Shown: positions 22,261 through 32,218, numbered from the stretch's first letter. The stretch is DNA of 40,847 nucleotides from Gammaproteobacteria bacterium (GCA_022822625.1 JAJEAV010000090.1:1-40847), one strand, 5' to 3'. The notes: generated by a model not told the origin, from the sequence alone. A program made the numbers and translations.

Positions 22261-23429
22261 ATGATTCGCACCATCACATAGACAGCAAAAGTTGGCAAAC
22301 CTGTTCATATCAGGCTTGACGCATTTCTACGTCAACAGACTGAATTGTGGAATGCAGCGTTGCAGGAAAGGCAAGACTGCTACAAGAAGACAGGTCGGTC
22401 AATATCCTGTTACGAACAGCAGAAGTCGCTTACCGAAATCCGCAAGGACCCGGAGTTTTCGCAGTATCATGCACAGACCCAGTATAGCGCACTGCGGCGA
22501 ATTGACAAGGCGTTCCAGGCGTTCTTCAGGCGGGTAAAGGCGGGAGAGAAGCCCGGTTATCCAAGGTTCAAGAGCCGATTCAGGGGGATTCATTCCTTCG
22601 AGGTTCCGGACCCGAGATTCAATGGTAACAGCATCAGGATAAAGGGTATCGGCACCATACGTTTCAGGGAGATGCCAGAGGGCAAAATCAGGATGGTCAG
22701 GATCGTGAAGTCTGCTCTCCGGGTTTCGGTACAGTTCGTAGTGGAGAAGGAGAACACCTGCACCAGAAAGCCCCTTGAGCCCATCGGGATTGACCTAAGA
22801 CTGAAGGACAGGGCTATCCTGTCAAGTGGCATGACGCTGGATGCCGGGCGCATTGACCGCAGGATGCTCAAGCGTCTGCAACAGAAGGTATCAAGAGCCG
22901 AAGGAAGAAAGTCATGGCCCTGCGGAGGGAGTGCGAAAGAGTGCGAATCATGGAACACGATGAACTCCACAGGGCCACCAGCAAAATCGCGAAGCAAGGC
23001 AACCGTATTGCGGTAGAGGACTTGCAGATTGGCAACATGGTCAGGAACCGCCATCTTGCAAGAGCAATTACGGAACAACAATGGAGCAAATTCGTAAATA
23101 TGCTTACCTACAAGGCTGAAAGTGCCGGTGGGGAAGTAGTACGGGTTGCCCCGCATCACACCAGTGCCGATTGTTCGGTATGTGGCCATCGTCAGAAGAT
23201 GCCTCTGCACAAGAGGCAGTTTGATTGCGGTGGTTGTGGTGTATCACTGGACAGGGATGTGAATGCATCCCGGAACATTCTCAAGCGGGGTTGCCTGCTT
23301 GCCGGGTGGGAAATGGGGCAGGAGTCTGCCCTTCCCGGTGCGTCCGAGAATGTCAGAAAAGATGCCATGGTCAATGCCGGAAGCAATTCCGGGAAAACCG
23401 GGCAGGGCGCAGAACAGTATGTCACTTAA
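22261..23429 (+). pseudogene. tnpB: tnpB (OrfB), RNA-guided nuclease of IS605 type, broken
   Basis: TnpB is a small RNA-guided DNA nuclease, ancestor of Cas12. The RuvC residues are all recognisable: GIDLRLKDRA (first Asp; Gly usually follows Leu where Arg stands here), IAVEDLQ (Glu) and DRDVNASRNI (last Asp). The zinc ribbon has CSVCG and CGGCG. Two lesions are visible. ATG 22261 is followed by a TAG at codon 7 (22279-22281), after which the frame is open and matches the family. A one-base deletion near 22891-22913 then moves the reading from the frame ending at 23016 to the one ending at 23429. Restoring one base after GCC (22897-22899) would give a continuous RRKKVMALRRECERV. Confidence 0.85.
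23328..23408 (+). ncRNA. Possible omega-RNA scaffold at the tnpB 3' end
   Basis: The arms GCCCTTCCCGG (23328-23338) and CCGGGCAGGGC (23398-23408) pair over 11 positions with one mismatch. They enclose CCGGAA-GCAA-TTCCGG (23377-23392), a six-pair hairpin with a GNRA tetraloop. A competing hairpin GGGCAG-GAGT-CTGCCC lies at 23316-23331. TnpB guide RNAs typically come from this position, overlapping the tnpB end. The folding was done by eye and no expression evidence exists. Confidence 0.35.
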
Positions 23430-24751: not shown

Positions 24752-25789
24752 TCAATTCAATTCAAACACAATTGGAACTTGCAGATCAATCTGGTTCTTT
24801 TGAAGACTTTTCGGGATGGGTGGAAATGGTCTGGCCCTGGATAGCATTCCAAGCGCTTCCCTGTCAAGATGTCTGTTGCCCGAACTTTCGACAAGTTCTG
24901 AAGATTCCATGCTCCCGTCAGCAAGAATGACGAAGCGTACTTTTGCCGCACCTGTTACGCCCCGGAGTCTTGCTGCACTCGGATACCTTTTTTGTGCACT
25001 GATCTTCGACATCAATACTTGCAGGTATTCCTGATGCAATGCAGAATTTCCTTCTTCATTGATTGCCGGACTGACTTCGCCCTGAGGCAGTGCCGTCAGC
25101 TCTTGACCAATGGATTCCTGTTGCGACAATGTACTGTCGTTCTCACTTTCTTCCTGTTTTGCCGACTGGTCAAGGGATGGTCGATCTACAGCCCTTCCCA
25201 ATGCCTCTTCTTTCAGTAATGGGTCCTGCTCCTTGTTTATCGATGGAACAGATTTCTCCAGAGTACTGATTCGTGCCGATTCCGGTTGTTCCATATCAAG
25301 TTGCTCGGGATCTACGGGCTCCGCCCTGACCGGCAATTCTTCGGTTGAAGCTGACTTGACTGCTACTGCAACATCGAATACGGAATCCGTCAAGTTTGAT
25401 ACTTCGGTTGATTCCTCATATTCAACCTCTTCCGAGAGCATATCTTCGTTCAACAGAACGTTCACCGCCTCATCTACATCCGTATGCCTGGGTTGATGGA
25501 CATGGACACCTCCAACCACTTCGCTCAAGACCGAGGATTCGATTGAAACGGATGATGCAGCTGAAGGAATGACTTCTTGAACAACAGGCACTTCTGGAGC
25601 AGTAACCATTCCTCTGGAATCAACAGACAGAGTATGCTCCCATTGTCTCAATGACACACGAACAGTATTTTCTTCAGTAGCCTGGGTTTGAGGGTTGCTC
25701 GACAGAAACAGCCACCCAAAGGTAATGCCCGCATGAACCAAAACGGCAATGGCAAAAGCAGTGAACCAGTTTCGTCCCGAGATTCTCAT
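24752..25789 (-). CDS. tonB: TonB energy-transducing protein
   Basis: Links the ExbB/ExbD motor of the inner membrane to outer-membrane receptors. The 345-residue protein has an N-terminal membrane anchor (FTAFAIAVLVHAGITFGWLF, 10-29). The C-terminal TonB domain (about 255-345) contains QKRYPSAARLRGVTG, VRFVILADGSM, SSGNRHLDREAL and ARPFPPIP. The long middle part is rich in Glu, Ser and Val, not the Pro-rich rod usual in TonB. The start overlaps the upstream exbD stop (ATGA). It is the last gene of the exbB-exbD-exbD-tonB block. Confidence 0.88.
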   Translation of the reverse strand: MRISGRNWFTAFAIAVLVHAGITFGWLFLSSNPQTQATEENTVRVSLRQWEHTLSVDSRGMVTAPEVPVVQEVIPSAASSVSIESSVLSEVVGGVHVHQPRHTDVDEAVNVLLNEDMLSEEVEYEESTEVSNLTDSVFDVAVAVKSASTEELPVRAEPVDPEQLDMEQPESARISTLEKSVPSINKEQDPLLKEEALGRAVDRPSLDQSAKQEESENDSTLSQQESIGQELTALPQGEVSPAINEEGNSALHQEYLQVLMSKISAQKRYPSAARLRGVTGAAKVRFVILADGSMESSELVESSGNRHLDREALGMLSRARPFPPIPKSLQKNQIDLQVPIVFELN

Positions 25790-26187
25790 GGCGATACTGC
25801 GGAAACGGTAACGAGATCAACTTCGCGAGCACCCGCTGATGAGAGTAATTCCAGGACTGCAACAACCTGTGATGCGAGTACCCGTCCGTCGGCCTTTAGC
25901 CGAACTACCCCCAACTCTTCCTTTTCCTGCAGTAGCCCGACCAGCATGGCTTCAGTAACAGGCGTGTTTTCAAGAGCAATCCGGGAATCCAATCCAACAT
26001 AAACCGTTGTTTCAGGTGTTCCTGCCCATCCTTCTCTTGTTGAATGAGGAGGCTTTGTCTGGAACGGGTCGGGAGAAATGACTTCTCCGGTAATCATCAC
26101 GAAAATCAACAGCAAAAAAACCACGTTGACCAGTGGGAGAACTCGCTCGTCGTCTATCTTTGTTACGGGCTTGTCAAACCGTATCAT
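25786..26187 (-). CDS. exbD: ExbD-like protein 2, lacking the channel aspartate
   Basis: A 133-residue single-span protein of the ExbD/TolR family. The membrane segment reads VLPLVNVVFLLLIFVMI; position 21, where ExbD has the proton-carrying Asp, is Asn. The periplasmic part contains the usual late motif (VVRLKADGRVLASQVVAVLELL). GGAG lies eight bases before the ATG. It follows a second exbD gene by 18 bases and overlaps tonB. It may pair with ExbD1, since the motor contains an ExbD dimer inside an ExbB ring. Confidence 0.85.
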   Translation of the reverse strand: MIRFDKPVTKIDDERVLPLVNVVFLLLIFVMITGEVISPDPFQTKPPHSTREGWAGTPETTVYVGLDSRIALENTPVTEAMLVGLLQEKEELGVVRLKADGRVLASQVVAVLELLSSAGAREVDLVTVSAVSP

Positions 26188-26205
26188 GAAACAATCTCCG
26201 GCTTG

Positions 26206-26631
26206 TTACCTGATGAGGGATATCCGTACCATGCCGGAATCCGAAAGCAGGTCTATCAGGGAGACTACCTCCTGCAACAGCACACCATCGACAGGCTTTA
26301 TCAGGACAACCAGATCGGGATGCTCAAGCAATTGACTTTCCAGGTGGGCAATCAAGACATCCCGGGGAATGGTTTCAGCCGACAGTCGTAACTGGTCGGG
26401 GGCAATCTCTACAAGCACCACATCGGAAACGGAATCAATGGCGGCCTCGGCCCTGACAGGAACATCAATCGGAACTGCATGCCAGTCTTCATAATTGGAA
26501 GCCAGCATGAAGAATATCAGCAGGATGAATACGACATCAATCAGGGGTGTAAGCCTGACTGGATTTCGCCAGGGTCTGTCGTTACTGTTGATCCGGTCAG
26601 GAACTGCTGTGCTGTGGAATAGCCCCGGCAT
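26206..26631 (-). CDS. exbD: ExbD-like protein 1 with the conserved channel aspartate
   Basis: Proton-channel subunit of the TonB motor. The membrane segment VRLTPLIDVVFILLIFFML contains the conserved Asp32, which takes up protons in E. coli ExbD (Asp25). The periplasmic domain ends LLSDSGMVRISLIR. ATG at 26631 follows GGAG by six bases, giving 141 residues; a slightly earlier ATG (26637) lies inside the ribosome binding site. It overlaps exbB by 35 bases and precedes the Asn variant of the same family. Confidence 0.9.
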   Translation of the reverse strand: MPGLFHSTAVPDRINSNDRPWRNPVRLTPLIDVVFILLIFFMLASNYEDWHAVPIDVPVRAEAAIDSVSDVVLVEIAPDQLRLSAETIPRDVLIAHLESQLLEHPDLVVLIKPVDGVLLQEVVSLIDLLSDSGMVRISLIR

Positions 26632-27271
26632 GATCATCTCCCACTGAATCTTCAGAAAGATCGATAGTAAAAATTCCTGTGACGATATTGCTCATTTCGT
26701 GGGACAGTCGGTCTATCCTTCTCTCCAGAAAGCCAAGAATGACCACTACCACTATCGCCACAGCCAGTCCAAGTGCCGTTGTGAGCAATGCTTCCCAGAT
26801 TCCTCCCGATAATACCGCCGGGTTGACCTGACTTCCTGATTGCTCCATTTCACGAAATGCATCAATCATCCCAAGCACTGTGCCGAGCAGACCTAGCAGG
26901 GGTGACAACGAGGTGATTATCTCCAGCATTCTGAATCCACTGCGCAGAGACTCCAGTGCATCGTTACCGTAACGCGTGACTTCTTCGCGGATAACCTGAT
27001 CAGGAAGAGATCGCAAATGACCGCGAATGGCTCTTGCCACTGCCAAGGCTGCCGGGTTCCGGGATGTACTGCAGACTTCCAGGGCTTCTCTGGAAAGACC
27101 CTTTCGGTAAAATTCCAGAGCCTCTCGCGCAGTCTGGAAATGACTGACCCGCATGGTTTTGAATTGCCAGATCTTGACCAGAATAATGGTTAATGCCGCA
27201 ATGGAAAGAACCACCAGGACCAGGACGATCGGCCCTCCCAGATCAAGCAGGTTCATAGCCTGTTCCAACAT
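26597..27271 (-). CDS. exbB: ExbB/TolQ-family motor protein
   Basis: Three-span inner-membrane protein that forms the pentameric ring of the TonB motor. The 224-residue protein has a first segment near 10-30 (GGPIVLVLVVLSIAALTIIL). The paired segments carry the conserved SPLLGLLGTVLGMIDAF and LLTTALGLAVAIVVVVIL, with the channel-lining Thr residues present. ATG at 27271 was chosen because AGGA lies seven bases before it; a further start at 27295 is less well placed. It begins the exbB-exbD-exbD-tonB block, with a secreted unknown gene upstream. Confidence 0.92.
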   Translation of the reverse strand: MLEQAMNLLDLGGPIVLVLVVLSIAALTIILVKIWQFKTMRVSHFQTAREALEFYRKGLSREALEVCSTSRNPAALAVARAIRGHLRSLPDQVIREEVTRYGNDALESLRSGFRMLEIITSLSPLLGLLGTVLGMIDAFREMEQSGSQVNPAVLSGGIWEALLTTALGLAVAIVVVVILGFLERRIDRLSHEMSNIVTGIFTIDLSEDSVGDDHAGAIPQHSSS

Positions 27272-27334
27272 GAAAAAATCCTGCCTCATGTCCATATAAC
27301 TCGCTTTGTGTCTGCAGGATATCGCTGTTCTACC

Positions 27335-27355
27335 CCGGAAGCATCATTCTTCCGG
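27335..27355. other. Perfect inverted repeat upstream of exbB
   Basis: CCGGAAG (27335-27341) and CTTCCGG (27349-27355) flank a seven-base centre, 64 bases before the exbB start and 106 bases after the end of the secreted-protein gene. There is no T-run, so it is more likely an operator or an RNA hairpin than a terminator. Confidence 0.4.
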
Positions 27356-27460
27356 AACCGCAACCTTGCTGCAGAAATTCCATGATGTGCTGCCAGATGG
27401 CATTCGATGTCGATTGTTCCATCAACCAGAGATTCATGCGACTGACAGCCTATCCGTTTT

Positions 27461-27892
27461 TTACTTGATCAATTCCACTGGGGCGCGCGAAGACGTGGAC
27501 AAAAAATCCAGACAGTCGGCTCGCATGTTCTGGCTGCCTGCGCATTCTGTAACATCATTGATGAGCAACCGACCGATCTGATTGCACGACAGCTGCAGAT
27601 TAAAGACCTTCACGCTTGTCTTGTCCGGCGGCAGCGGCGCCAGCGATGCCCCTATAACCTTCTCTATAATGCCATCCTCGCGAAAGATCACCAAATCAAT
27701 AATCAACTCGGTGAAGTTTTCCGAAGTCTGATTGTGTGAAACAAGATAGGCGTGACACCCTGTTTCGAGAGATTCCAGTTTATTGAGCTCTAACAATACT
27801 GTACCATCCGCATATGTGAAACCCGAAGGGGCTGAAAGCATCACGAGAAGGGTAGCTGTAAAAGCTAGTCTTTTGAAAAATTTATTCAGCAT
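27461..27892 (-). CDS. Secreted protein of unknown function upstream of exbB
   Basis: A 143-residue protein with a clear signal peptide (LNKFFKRLAFTATLLVML, cleavage near TYA). The mature part begins with short beta-strand-like segments (VLLELNKLESLETGCHAYLV, ELIIDLVIFREDGIIE, TSVKVFNLQLSC). It has four Cys after the signal, which could form two disulfides, and ends SSRAPVELIK. I recall similar unnamed proteins beside ExbB/ExbD genes in Alphaproteobacteria, but cannot confirm it here. It is transcribed toward exbB with a gap of 189 bases and may assist the TonB system in the periplasm. The ribosome binding site is weak. Confidence 0.7.
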   Translation of the reverse strand: MLNKFFKRLAFTATLLVMLSAPSGFTYADGTVLLELNKLESLETGCHAYLVSHNQTSENFTELIIDLVIFREDGIIEKVIGASLAPLPPDKTSVKVFNLQLSCNQIGRLLINDVTECAGSQNMRADCLDFLSTSSRAPVELIK

Positions 27893-28086
27893 GAGAATAC
27901 GGATTGGGAAGACGGCTTCCTGATCACGGGCGGAAAGCCTCATAGATTAACAAGTATAAAGGATATTATAAGCAATACGATCGGCTGCATTTGGATTGTT
28001 GCGTCTGGCTCTGGGAGTACATGGAAAATTTCGACACGCTTCAAGGCTGGTTTATTTTGGCACCCTGACTGCAGGGGGGAAAGGCC

Positions 28087-28141
28087 TTGACAAAATCAAT
28101 AACATGGAATACAACAATTGTCCGTGTGGTTTGTGTGGTTT
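28087..28141 (+). promoter_or_regulatory. Probable promoter and tandem repeat before the PQQ-dehydrogenase gene
   Basis: TTGACA (28087-28092) and TACAAC (28110-28115) are 17 bases apart. Right after them GTGTGGTTT occurs twice in tandem (28124-28132 and 28133-28141), a possible operator in the early transcribed region. The gene starts at 28198. The rest of the gap between the divergent blocks (27944-28086) shows nothing I recognise. Confidence 0.45.
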
Positions 28142-28197
28142 GCTTTTTCTCTAAACCTCAACCCTTCATAAATATTTCAGATTAGGAAAATTTCATT

Positions 28198-29484
28198 ATG
28201 AACAGAAAACTATCAATCCCGAATTATCTGGGGTCGGCGGTTGTTGCATCCATCATGATGTTGACAGGTGCCAGCGCTCTCGCTTCCAAAGATGCCAATC
28301 TGAGCAAGCTTGGAGCATTCAAGACCACAGGTACTGGAGCGGGTGAGATGATTGCCCAGAGTGGTGCCTTTGCTGACAATGTCCGGCAAATTCTGGAGAC
28401 CATCTCGCTACCGGAAGGTTTCAGGATAGAGCTTTTTGCACTGGCTCCCGATGCCCGGCATATGGCTGTTGGACGAAACAAGGGTACGGTTTGGATTGGC
28501 ACGCGCAAGACCAAGGTATGGGCGGCCACGGACCGTGATCTCGACAACATGGCGGATACCGTTGAAGAGTTCAGTCCAAGTGTCCGGTTCGACATCCCGA
28601 ATGGAGTCTGCTATTCACCGGACGGCTTTCTGTTCGTAGCTGAACGCAATCGTGTCCTGATGTTCCCTGCTGCCGAATTCTTCATGGAAAGTCCCGATAC
28701 GGTTGCAATCCCCATTGTACCTCAGGGTGAGCTGATTCCAGCCGAGGAAGAGTCCTACAACCATACAGCCAGGGTCTGCGCCATTGGACCTGACAACAAG
28801 CTCTATGTCAGTCTCGGTCAGCCGTTCAATGTGTCTCCGCCAGAAAAGCAGGAACTGTACGACAGGGTCGGCATCGGTGGAATGCTTCGCATGGATCGGG
28901 ACGGAGGCAACCGTGAGGTTATCGCCACGGGCATCCGGAATTCGGTGGGACATGCTTTCAATCCGGCTGACGGCACTCTGTGGTTTACGGACAATCAGGT
29001 TGATGGCATGGGTGACGAAACCCCTCCCGGAGAACTCAACAAGATTTCCGAAGATGGCATGTGGTATGGTCATCCCCACTATGGTGGCGGTGAAGTGCGT
29101 ACCAATGAGTATGCTAATGAGGAAATTCCTGCCGACAAGCTTGCGCGCTACGTTCCTCCACAAGTGGAAACCATTGCCCATGCGGCTGACCTGGGTATGA
29201 TGTTCTATACGGGAGGCATGTTCCCGGAAAAGTACAAGGGGGCAATTTTCAGCACACAGCACGGTTCCTGGAATGCCGTGGTTCCACGTGGTGCACGCAT
29301 CATGGTGACCTTTCTGGATGAAGAAGGCAATGCGAAGGAAATGGTTCCATTTGCCGAAGGATGGCTACAGCCCAATGGAGTATATTCCGGGCGCCCGGTT
29401 GATGTGCAGCAATATGTGGACGGATCAATCCTGGTCTCTGATGACAAGGTTGGTGCGGTATACCGCATTTCCTACGAAAACTGA
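28198..29484 (+). CDS. PQQ-dependent sugar dehydrogenase (sorbosone/aldose dehydrogenase-like)
   Basis: Periplasmic quinoprotein that probably oxidises sugars and needs PQQ as cofactor. The 428-residue protein has a signal peptide (LGSAVVASIMMLTGASALA) and a six-bladed beta-propeller pattern. Segments typical of this family are LPEGFRIELFALAPDARHMA, WIGTRKTKVWAATDRD, VCYSPDGFLFVAERNRVL, IGPDNKLYVSLGQPFNV, GIRNSVGHAFNPADGTLWFTDNQ, FSTQHGSWNAVVP and GRPVDVQQ. The substrate cannot be told. A c-type cytochrome gene follows as the likely electron acceptor, then a PQQ-receptor-like gene. AGGA lies ten bases before the ATG. Confidence 0.85.
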   Translation: MNRKLSIPNYLGSAVVASIMMLTGASALASKDANLSKLGAFKTTGTGAGEMIAQSGAFADNVRQILETISLPEGFRIELFALAPDARHMAVGRNKGTVWIGTRKTKVWAATDRDLDNMADTVEEFSPSVRFDIPNGVCYSPDGFLFVAERNRVLMFPAAEFFMESPDTVAIPIVPQGELIPAEEESYNHTARVCAIGPDNKLYVSLGQPFNVSPPEKQELYDRVGIGGMLRMDRDGGNREVIATGIRNSVGHAFNPADGTLWFTDNQVDGMGDETPPGELNKISEDGMWYGHPHYGGGEVRTNEYANEEIPADKLARYVPPQVETIAHAADLGMMFYTGGMFPEKYKGAIFSTQHGSWNAVVPRGARIMVTFLDEEGNAKEMVPFAEGWLQPNGVYSGRPVDVQQYVDGSILVSDDKVGAVYRISYEN

Positions 29485-29494
29485 TCTGCAAACC

Positions 29495-29532
29495 AGGTGG
29501 TGCCGGCAATCCGGTGCCACCTTTCTGTTTTT
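29495..29532 (+). terminator. Rho-independent terminator after the PQQ dehydrogenase gene
   Basis: AGGTGGTGCCGG (29495-29506) and CCGGTGCCACCT (29511-29522) form 12 pairs (two G-U) around the loop CAAT, followed by TTCTGTTTTT. It starts 11 bases after the stop codon and lies before the cytochrome gene, so it may lower, not abolish, downstream transcription. Confidence 0.8.
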
Positions 29533-29702
29533 GCGCCGGACAGACCCTGGTCTCGCGATGCTGTGGTGTCAGTATTCAGGAAACCGCTTCGGCTCTGGTT
29601 TTTGATGATTCGTGCCCCTGTTCCTGGTTTTGGCGTGCCTGAAATCTGCAGGGCTTCATAATCAGGAGTAACCAGTAGAGCCATACATGGGATGATTTTC
29701 TG

Positions 29703-30071
29703 ATGAGTACAGGAAGTTTATTTGCAAACAGGGTCCGCCCGGTCCTGATGGGCATGTGCCTGCCAGTTGCACTGTTCTGCATTGGATCTGCCCAGTTGTC
29801 GGCAGACGATGTGCAGGCAGGAAAACGAAAGGCAGAAGTCGCCTGCCAGACATGCCACGGTACTGATGGAGTGGCTACGATGGCCATGGTTCCCAATCTT
29901 AGCGGACAAAGAGAGGACTACACGATTATCCAGCTCGAGGCCTATCGCTCCGGCAAACGGCAACACTCCCAGATGTCCATTATTGCCCAGTCCCTGAGTG
30001 ATCAGGATATCCGGAACCTGGCCGCCTGGTATGCCTCAATCCCAATTTCGGTGACCGTTCCTTCCGAATGA
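29703..30071 (+). CDS. Small periplasmic c-type cytochrome
   Basis: Monoheme cytochrome of the c553/c4-half type, 122 residues. It has a signal peptide (VRPVLMGMCLPVALFCIGSA, cleavage near QLSA) and the heme site CQTCH (Cys48, Cys51, His52), followed by GTDGVATMAMVPNLSGQ. Met residues in the SGKRQHSQMSIIA stretch could supply the second ligand. It ends with the usual LSDQDIRNLAAWYASI helix. Placed between a PQQ dehydrogenase and a PQQ-type receptor, it probably carries electrons from the dehydrogenase to the respiratory chain. Its stop lies 75 bases before the receptor start. Confidence 0.88.
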   Translation: MSTGSLFANRVRPVLMGMCLPVALFCIGSAQLSADDVQAGKRKAEVACQTCHGTDGVATMAMVPNLSGQREDYTIIQLEAYRSGKRQHSQMSIIAQSLSDQDIRNLAAWYASIPISVTVPSE

Positions 30072-30145
30072 GAATGGACGCCCTTCAGGCACGATCTGTA
30101 CATATCCAGAAATCAGTCACGGCAAGATTCAATGGAGAACAAGCA

Positions 30146-32218
30146 GTGAAACACGTAATGATTCCAATAATAAAGAAACCGTTTTTTTTGGGAATGGCAT
30201 TTTCGCTTGCCTTCACCGGCGTATCTGCCCAGACCATCACACTGGAACCGATTGATGTTACCGCCACCCGAGTCGAGAAAAACCTGGCAGAAATTCCATC
30301 TGCAGTCACCAGCATTGGCCAGGATGATATTCAGCTGGGCACCGAACAACTTGGGCTTGACGAATCCTTGGACAGCGTGCCCGGGCTGTTTCTAATGAAC
30401 CGTTATAACTTTGCCCAGGACCTGCGAGCCTCCATCCGTGGTTTTGGTGCCCGTGCCGCCTTTGGAATTCGCGGTATCAAGGTGATTGTCGATGGCATAC
30501 CGGAAACCCTGCCGGATGGTCAGGGATCCGTGGACGGAATCGATATCGGTTCGGCAGAGCAGATAACGGTGATTCGTGGACCGGCGTCATCTCTGTATGG
30601 GAATGCTTCCGGGGGTGCCATCATAGTGGAGAGTGAGCGTGGACCTCCCGAACCCTTCGCCGAAATCAGGTCAAGCGGGGGTGCATACGGACTGCAGAAA
30701 CACCAGTTCAAGTTTGGCGGCCAGGATGGGAGCTTCAATTATCTGGTCAATGTTTCCGATACCAGGACTGATGGATATCGTGACCATGGCGAAGCAGAAA
30801 ACCGGCAGCTCAACACCCGTCTGGAGTACGACCTGTCAAGGGATACAACAATCGTTGCGACCATGCATCATACCGATCAGCCTGTTTCCAATGATCCGGG
30901 AGGAATTAATGCGGCTGGCGTGGCGGCCAATCGAAGACAGGCTCGTGACCGGAACCTGTTTTTCAATACCGGTGAAACCCTGAAACAGAACCGCCTGGGG
31001 GTAACACTACGTACTCAATTGGCCGAAGGGCACTCCCTGCAGGCCCGCGTCCATCACATCAACCGGGATTTTGACGCCAGCCTTCCATTGTCTGGCAATG
31101 GCATCGTGAGACTCGATCGCAGTGTTCTGGGTACCGGTGCCCAGTATACCTGGGAGAGCAGCCTTGGCGGCAAGCCCAATCGCCTTCTCGCGGGACTGGA
31201 TTTCGACATGCAGGATGATGATCGTTCCCGATTCCAGAATCAGGAGGGCGGGATCGCCGGCGACCGTGTACTCGACCAGAACGAGGAGGTGACGTCCCTC
31301 GGCGTGTTTCTTCAAAACGAACTCAGCCTGACCGACCGTTCTGAATTGACCCTGGGTCTTCGTTATGACGAGGTGGAATATGACGTCACGGATCGCTACA
31401 TCACGGACTTGAACGGGGATGATTCAGGAAGCGTTACCTTTGACCAGATCAGTCCCATGGTGGGACTGGGTTATGCATTATCCGAAAATGTTCGCCTCTA
31501 TTCGAATATCTCCAGTGGATTCGAAACGCCGACCACCACGGAACTGGCGAATCCCAATGGCGGGGGATTCAACCAGTCACTCGAACCCCAGAAATCCACC
31601 AACTATGAAGTGGGTATCAAGTCACTCTCGGGACAGCATCGGTACGAGATCGCAATGTTCTCGATTGATGTCAAAAATGAATTGATTCCTTATGAACTGC
31701 AAAGTCAGCAAGGACGTACCTTCTATCGAAATGCGGGTGAATCCAGCCGCAAGGGGATTGAACTGGCATATGCCACAAGCCTTGGCCGGGGATTCGAGTT
31801 TTCATCGGCATGGACTTGGTCAGATTTCAAGTTTGAACGCTTTTCCAACGCAGATGGTAATGTGTTTGACGGAAAACGGATTCCGGGGATTCCGGAACAG
31901 TTACTGCATCTCGAAATATCCTGGTTTGGCAGGGACGGTCATTATCTTATCTGGGATGCAAATGCGACCGGTAGTCTGTATGCCGATAATGCCAACCAGA
32001 CCAGGGTAGATCGTTACACCGTGAGCAATTTGCGACTTGGCCTTGAAAAATTTGTGGGCGACTGGGAGATATCACCATTTGTCGGAGTGAACAATCTCTT
32101 CGACGAGAAATACAACAGCAATATCCGGATCAACGCTTTTGGTTCACGTTACTATGAGCCGGCACCGGAACGGAATATCTATGGTGGGATTACCGTGCGC
32201 CATGTCTTTGGGAGATAA
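30146..32218 (+). CDS. pqqU: TonB-dependent outer membrane receptor, PqqU/YncD-like
   Basis: Probable importer of PQQ across the outer membrane. The 690-residue protein has a signal peptide (PFFLGMAFSLAFTGVSAQ), a plug domain and a 22-strand barrel ending in Phe-Gly-Arg. Motifs that recall E. coli YncD (PqqU) run along the whole length: NFAQDLRASIRGFG, GIRGIKVIVDGIP, LPDGQG, LYGNASGG, GYRDH, NDPGG, NGDDSG, GFETPTTTEL and YYEPAPERN. GTG at 30146 has GGAG eight bases upstream; the frame is open to 30068, but that part is not signal-like. ATG 30158 is an alternative. The assignment is from remembered sequence and needs alignment. Confidence 0.8.
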   Translation: MKHVMIPIIKKPFFLGMAFSLAFTGVSAQTITLEPIDVTATRVEKNLAEIPSAVTSIGQDDIQLGTEQLGLDESLDSVPGLFLMNRYNFAQDLRASIRGFGARAAFGIRGIKVIVDGIPETLPDGQGSVDGIDIGSAEQITVIRGPASSLYGNASGGAIIVESERGPPEPFAEIRSSGGAYGLQKHQFKFGGQDGSFNYLVNVSDTRTDGYRDHGEAENRQLNTRLEYDLSRDTTIVATMHHTDQPVSNDPGGINAAGVAANRRQARDRNLFFNTGETLKQNRLGVTLRTQLAEGHSLQARVHHINRDFDASLPLSGNGIVRLDRSVLGTGAQYTWESSLGGKPNRLLAGLDFDMQDDDRSRFQNQEGGIAGDRVLDQNEEVTSLGVFLQNELSLTDRSELTLGLRYDEVEYDVTDRYITDLNGDDSGSVTFDQISPMVGLGYALSENVRLYSNISSGFETPTTTELANPNGGGFNQSLEPQKSTNYEVGIKSLSGQHRYEIAMFSIDVKNELIPYELQSQQGRTFYRNAGESSRKGIELAYATSLGRGFEFSSAWTWSDFKFERFSNADGNVFDGKRIPGIPEQLLHLEISWFGRDGHYLIWDANATGSLYADNANQTRVDRYTVSNLRLGLEKFVGDWEISPFVGVNNLFDEKYNSNIRINAFGSRYYEPAPERNIYGGITVRHVFGR

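Follow-up and report, generated by a model that had tools for sequence, protein, structure and literature searches.

A locus that may couple PQQ import to an AA12-like dehydrogenase in a gammaproteobacterium

Does a single locus equip a bacterium to take up PQQ made by other microbes and to use it in the periplasm? The question is raised by a stretch of 40,847 nucleotides from a gammaproteobacterium, referred to here as the window, for which a preliminary description had proposed that the receptor, motor, apoenzyme and electron carrier for scavenging external PQQ lie in one place. The analysis supports that reading, also at the two points where it was most exposed, the family of the receptor and the PQQ-binding residues of the dehydrogenase. 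The locus is very probably a cofactor-scavenging module, through which PQQ would be imported and then used by the neighbouring dehydrogenase. PqqU, AA12 enzymes and PQQ scavenging, which is widespread, had been described before; what is new is the partnership with an AA12 enzyme in so compact an arrangement. The gene identities, signature residues, fold, lack of detectable pqqC and pqqE, and co-occurrence of the genes were all computed here.

Layout of the locus and family of the receptor

Open reading frames and Pfam domains agree with the two divergent blocks described earlier. A minus-strand block with the order HYP160-ExbB-ExbD-ExbD-TonB diverges from a plus-strand block of a dehydrogenase, a mono-haem c-type cytochrome and a TonB-dependent receptor, with a gap of 254 bp between the HYP160 side and the dehydrogenase side. 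All the genes named at that time were confirmed, with two refinements: HYP160 joins the motor block, and the dehydrogenase resembles AA12 enzymes rather than E. coli Asd/YliI. As separate observations on the window, a TnpB-like gene, seemingly broken into two frames (22345-23429), lies between an FAD oxidoreductase and the motor block and is missing from the related genomes G002 and G005, and positions 1-2000 show a GC content of 66%, against about 50% elsewhere, possibly as a foreign or chimeric contig end.

The receptor gene (30146-32218, plus strand; PF07715 and PF00593) starts with a GTG codon, ahead of which lies a GGAG motif. The top NCBIfam model for its product is NF041535 PqqU (3e-132), with a score of 442 bits that does not reach the curated cut-off of 1200 bits; this cut-off appears to have been set for close orthologues of the E. 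coli protein, and the published PqqU survey makes no use of it (PMC12124388). Among PDB entries, the structures of E. coli PqqU (YncD) match best (6v81 and 9c4o; 1e-103), the next family following at 1e-17, and in a maximum-likelihood tree the receptor joins E. coli PqqU with a support of 100/98, apart from FhuA, FhuE, FepA, CirA and BtuB. Alignment with E. coli PqqU, to which the receptor is 32% identical, bears out its description as YncD/PqqU-like and places Q91, F106, R307, R360 and R524 opposite the plug contacts Q84 and Y99 and the carboxylate-binding R304, R365 and R536. The signature used for PqqU by Munder and colleagues, a Tyr, Phe or Trp at position 99 together with Arg304 and Arg365 (PMC12124388), is present in this alignment as F106, R307 and R360. 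The signature residues are kept in the window receptor and 11 relatives, are gone in a 27%-identical non-orthologue, and are borne by 78 of the 80 best public relatives. A siderophore or B12 role was rejected on the tree and the residues; a grouping with such receptors had been named beforehand as an outcome that would refute PQQ uptake.

A receptor that only resembles PqqU might import some compound similar to PQQ, a chelate of a lanthanide or of calcium, or the substrate of the enzyme. The low identity to the E. coli protein and the missed cut-off leave some room for this, as does position 274, where the receptor has Glu (E277) and E. coli PqqU has Lys, an exchange that is inactivating in the latter (PMC12124388). 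However, natural PqqU homologues commonly have Glu at this position, where models give it a part in the co-binding of a metal (PMC12124388), and so do 78 of the 80 public sequences closest to the receptor. Moreover, all three signature residues are retained, and the genes that lie next door or co-occur encode PQQ enzymes from several families. Import of such another ligand is very improbable, and the receptor is taken here as a putative PqqU-type importer of PQQ. The locus differs in its arrangement from that of E. coli K-12, where the retrieved pqqU stretch holds neither dehydrogenase nor TonB genes and yliI lies elsewhere, just as the preliminary description had stated.

The AA12-like dehydrogenase and its neighbouring cytochrome

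The first gene of the plus-strand block (28198-29484) encodes a PQQ-dependent dehydrogenase of AA12-like type, predicted to be exported, with a low match to PF07995 (42.7 bits). An AF2 model (pLDDT 82.6) points to a six-bladed propeller nearest to AA12 structures: Foldseek gave AA12 6jt5 as the best match (1.4e-19), followed by 6i1q (7e-19), with Asd and sGDH ranking lower, and the top 22 PDB matches of the model are all quinoprotein sugar dehydrogenases (with titles of PQQ/AA12 or glucose dehydrogenases), AA12 being first. A single-sequence PDB search retrieved no chain, while the profile search and the structure model did match. Designed repeat propellers, which topped the PDB profile search, gave no significant single stretch and were ignored.

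The PQQ-binding residues of Coprinopsis pyranose dehydrogenase include His363 (catalytic), Arg430, Asn431, His539, His560, Trp563 and Asn564 (PMC6881789), and these map to H189, R247, N248, H328, H355, W358 and N359 of the dehydrogenase, all of them invariant in 16 relatives. By motif only, R87 and R399 are the probable equivalents of Arg273 and Arg621. The mapped residues and the AA12 fold dispose of the second objection anticipated earlier, that PQQ-binding residues might be lacking in a structural model. The best structural match is with the AA12 PQQ-dependent pyranose dehydrogenases of Coprinopsis cinerea (CcPDH) and Trichoderma reesei, the likeness of the mapped residues extending to the equivalent of the AA12-specific His560. 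Whereas these enzymes carry a fused AA8 cytochrome b domain, the dehydrogenase described here is bacterial, consists of a stand-alone domain accompanied by a separate cytochrome c, and is about 17% identical to them.

It is very improbable that this protein has kept the PF07995 fold and lost the use of PQQ. Such a loss would fit the low PF07995 score, the lack of any PDB chain in the single-sequence search and the retention of the gene in some genomes without any detected PQQ source; however, the catalytic His, the Arg-Asn pair, the AA12-specific His and the Trp-Asn pair do not vary among the 16 relatives, and two genomes of the same family keep the dehydrogenase together with a PQQ biosynthesis gene in place of PqqU. 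Continued use of PQQ by the dehydrogenase is therefore the reading followed below.

The next gene (29703-30071, plus strand) encodes a c-type cytochrome, predicted to be exported, with one CxxCH motif (CQTCH) and matches to PF13442 (2e-7) and PF00034 (5e-7). The cytochrome gene adjoins the dehydrogenase gene in relatives wherever the contig reaches, which suggests that the cytochrome would be the electron acceptor of the dehydrogenase. Between both genes, directly 3′ of the dehydrogenase stop codon, lies a GC-rich intercistronic hairpin of 12 bp with a T-rich tail (29495-29522, plus strand), which by stability ranks in the top 0.5% of 71-nt stretches in the window. A strong GC-rich stem of quite different sequence occupies the same place in most relatives (L034, L035, L036, L040-L043, L157 and L158); no stem follows the dehydrogenase stop codon in L045, and L050 cannot be judged owing to its high GC content. 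The hairpin was not taken for a plain terminator, since the stem is kept in most relatives and the T-run in few. The hairpin probably allows more dehydrogenase than cytochrome and receptor to be made from one transcript, through either partial termination or stabilisation of the mRNA.

Supply of PQQ and service of the TonB motor

The genome that contains the window (2.56 Mb) is 94% complete, so that single gene absences are not certain, and all genome-wide statements rest on profile searches. As predicted, the search for PQQ synthesis genes found no pqqC and no pqqE match over the cut-off; the call of PQQ auxotrophy rests on these two genes. No PQQ alcohol/methanol-type dehydrogenase (TIGR03075) was found in the genome, and its single PF07995 gene is the window dehydrogenase. 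In a marine host without detectable PQQ synthesis, this enzyme would depend on the PQQ of other microbes.

The comparison covered 109 genomes of the order, of which 20 carry the dehydrogenase and 14 carry PqqU; 13 carry both, with a Fisher p-value of 4e-11 that ignores shared ancestry. The co-occurrence expected in related genomes was thus found, with the dehydrogenase in 13 of the 14 PqqU genomes and G052 as the case of PqqU without it. The two genes are adjacent in eight genomes, which belong to families f1, f2 and f7. Two genomes of the same family (G021 and G022) keep a dehydrogenase of 82-85% identity with pqqC and without PqqU, the pqqC of G021 lying together with pqqB and pqqE, and import and synthesis therefore appear to replace each other around one enzyme. 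The main weakness comes from five genomes of 75-92% completeness (G028, G037, G038, G077 and G078), in which the dehydrogenase is present and neither pqqC nor PqqU was detected, G028 and G038 having no plug-domain receptor at all. They weaken a strict coupling between the dehydrogenase and a source of PQQ, and could be explained by incompleteness or by diffusion of PQQ through porins.

Transport, holoenzyme formation, the electron route and the substrate class are what we infer from this set of genes. The PqqU-type receptor would bind environmental PQQ, with R307, R360 and R524 on its carboxylates and F106 stacking, and the ExbB-ExbD-ExbD-TonB motor would supply the proton-motive energy that draws the cofactor into the periplasm, where the dehydrogenase, itself exported, would become active by taking up PQQ and calcium. 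Sugars are the usual substrate class of AA12, and the substrate would probably be a sugar or a sugar-like alcohol or aldehyde. Finally, the electrons would pass from the dehydrogenase into respiration by way of the neighbouring mono-haem cytochrome c.

The motor block, on the minus strand, comprises TonB (24752-25789; PF03544 4e-18), two copies of ExbD (the second at 25786-26187, PF02472 9e-14; the first at 26206-26637, PF02472 5e-16) and the ExbB proton channel (26597-27295; PF01618 4e-29). Upstream of ExbB lies HYP160 (27461-27943, minus strand), a conserved secreted protein of 160 aa with no match in Pfam or NCBIfam and an AF2 model (pLDDT 48) too weak to use. HYP160 is 73-74% identical in all five congeners, where it also adjoins ExbB as part of the motor block, is conserved better than TonB, and is possibly an accessory part of the motor. 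The genome contains one TonB; the one other TonB_C match (C69) was rejected as a second TonB because it is TolA inside a Tol-Pal operon. Profile search detected the window receptor as the sole plug-domain TonB-dependent receptor of the genome. On this evidence, the whole TonB system would serve one receptor in this genome, and the predicted imported cofactor has one candidate user. The gene content is like that of other ExbB-ExbD-ExbD-TonB systems with two ExbD; in contrast to these, the motor here is encoded beside a TonB-dependent receptor that is the sole one found in the genome.

The motor could also be a coincidental neighbour of a true PQQ importer, if a TonB system serving the genus in general, which would power any receptor, had happened to move beside the dehydrogenase; to this reading we give a little less than an even chance. 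It draws on the five congeners, since the motor lies beside the dehydrogenase/PqqU locus in only three of them (G000, G003 and G006). The same HYP160-ExbB-ExbD-ExbD-TonB block lies on another contig than the PQQ locus in G002, beside a decayed TonB-dependent receptor, and in G005, beside an ABC transporter; moreover, G002, G005 and G006 have a second receptor that falls with BtuB in the tree and a single good TonB each. However, no further TonB-dependent receptor was found in the window genome, high-identity matches to the motor TonB are restricted to the five PqqU-bearing congeners, G001 and G004, which lack PqqU, having none, and motor genes also adjoin PqqU-type receptors in the loci L068, L071, L073 (Nitrospinota) and L102, an arrangement that is uncommon but recurrent. 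The dedicated motor of the preliminary description holds by default in this genome, with its one receptor and one TonB found, and is weakened by G002 and G005, in which the motor lies apart from the PQQ locus and a receptor of BtuB type occurs as well.

Some further observations concern these systems. The decayed receptor that adjoins the motor block of G002 (L155:6498-7205) retains only the N-terminus of the plug, and the TonB gene of G003 (L037:4011-4807) is split over two frames by sequencing error or decay. The genomes G001, G008, G009, G014, G017 and G020 have one TonB-dependent receptor each, that of the congener G001 being BtuB-like in the tree, and show only weak, TolA-like TonB_C matches (none in G009).

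PqqU loci elsewhere and meaning of the arrangement

The 80 nearest named PqqU loci were compared through their neighbours within about 7 kb. Most of them show no recognised PQQ enzyme over that distance, and co-localisation was accordingly rejected as a general rule for PqqU. The minority with such a neighbour, set against a chance expectation of roughly 1% (a crude estimate), involves three families: AA12-like enzymes (L064, L068, L087, L119 and L135, with weaker matches in L066 and L080), aldose-type or other PF07995 enzymes (L065, L068 and L069, of the aldose-dehydrogenase type in L065 and L068), and PF01011 enzymes (L074, L078, L102 and L108). Two of these loci also hold a motor, with the order AA12 dehydrogenase, cytochrome, PqqU, ExbB, ExbD, TonB, cytochrome and aldose-type PQQ dehydrogenase in L068, and PqqU, PF01011 dehydrogenase, ExbB, ExbD and TonB in L102. 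In G029 (L068/L039), PQQ-type dehydrogenases of different families thus stand on both sides of PqqU, each with its own cytochrome c, and in G047 (L048/L108) the partner enzyme is swapped, a PF01011-type PQQ dehydrogenase beside PqqU replacing AA12. A partial likeness is found in the XoxF3 clusters of soil Verrucomicrobia, Acidobacteria and Gemmatimonadetes, which encode a TonB-dependent receptor together with cytochromes and a PQQ dehydrogenase (PMC10875860); unlike in the present locus, their enzyme belongs to the lanthanide methanol dehydrogenase family, and the part of that source consulted neither identifies the receptors as PqqU nor reports a motor (PMC10875860).

To detect quinoproteins, the published PqqU survey relied on PF01011, PF13360, PF13570 and an additional profile, PF07995 not being among them, and it found no quinoprotein in one third of the PqqU carriers (PMC12124388). 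AA12-type partners could account for part of that third, since those searches omitted PF07995. Our proposal that the lineage keeps ExbB-ExbD-ExbD-TonB because of PQQ, and that AA12 is the missing partner in part of the carriers without a quinoprotein, is a tentative one, which we hold to be rather less probable than its opposite.

The locus presents a cofactor importer that adjoins a likely consumer of PQQ from a family outside the domain searches of the published survey. With no second TonB-dependent receptor found in its genome, it lends itself, as a clean natural case, to the question of what purpose a TonB motor and a cofactor importer serve. Moreover, some genomes of the family keep the enzyme with PQQ biosynthesis genes and without PqqU, so that making and importing the cofactor can be compared around one and the same gene.
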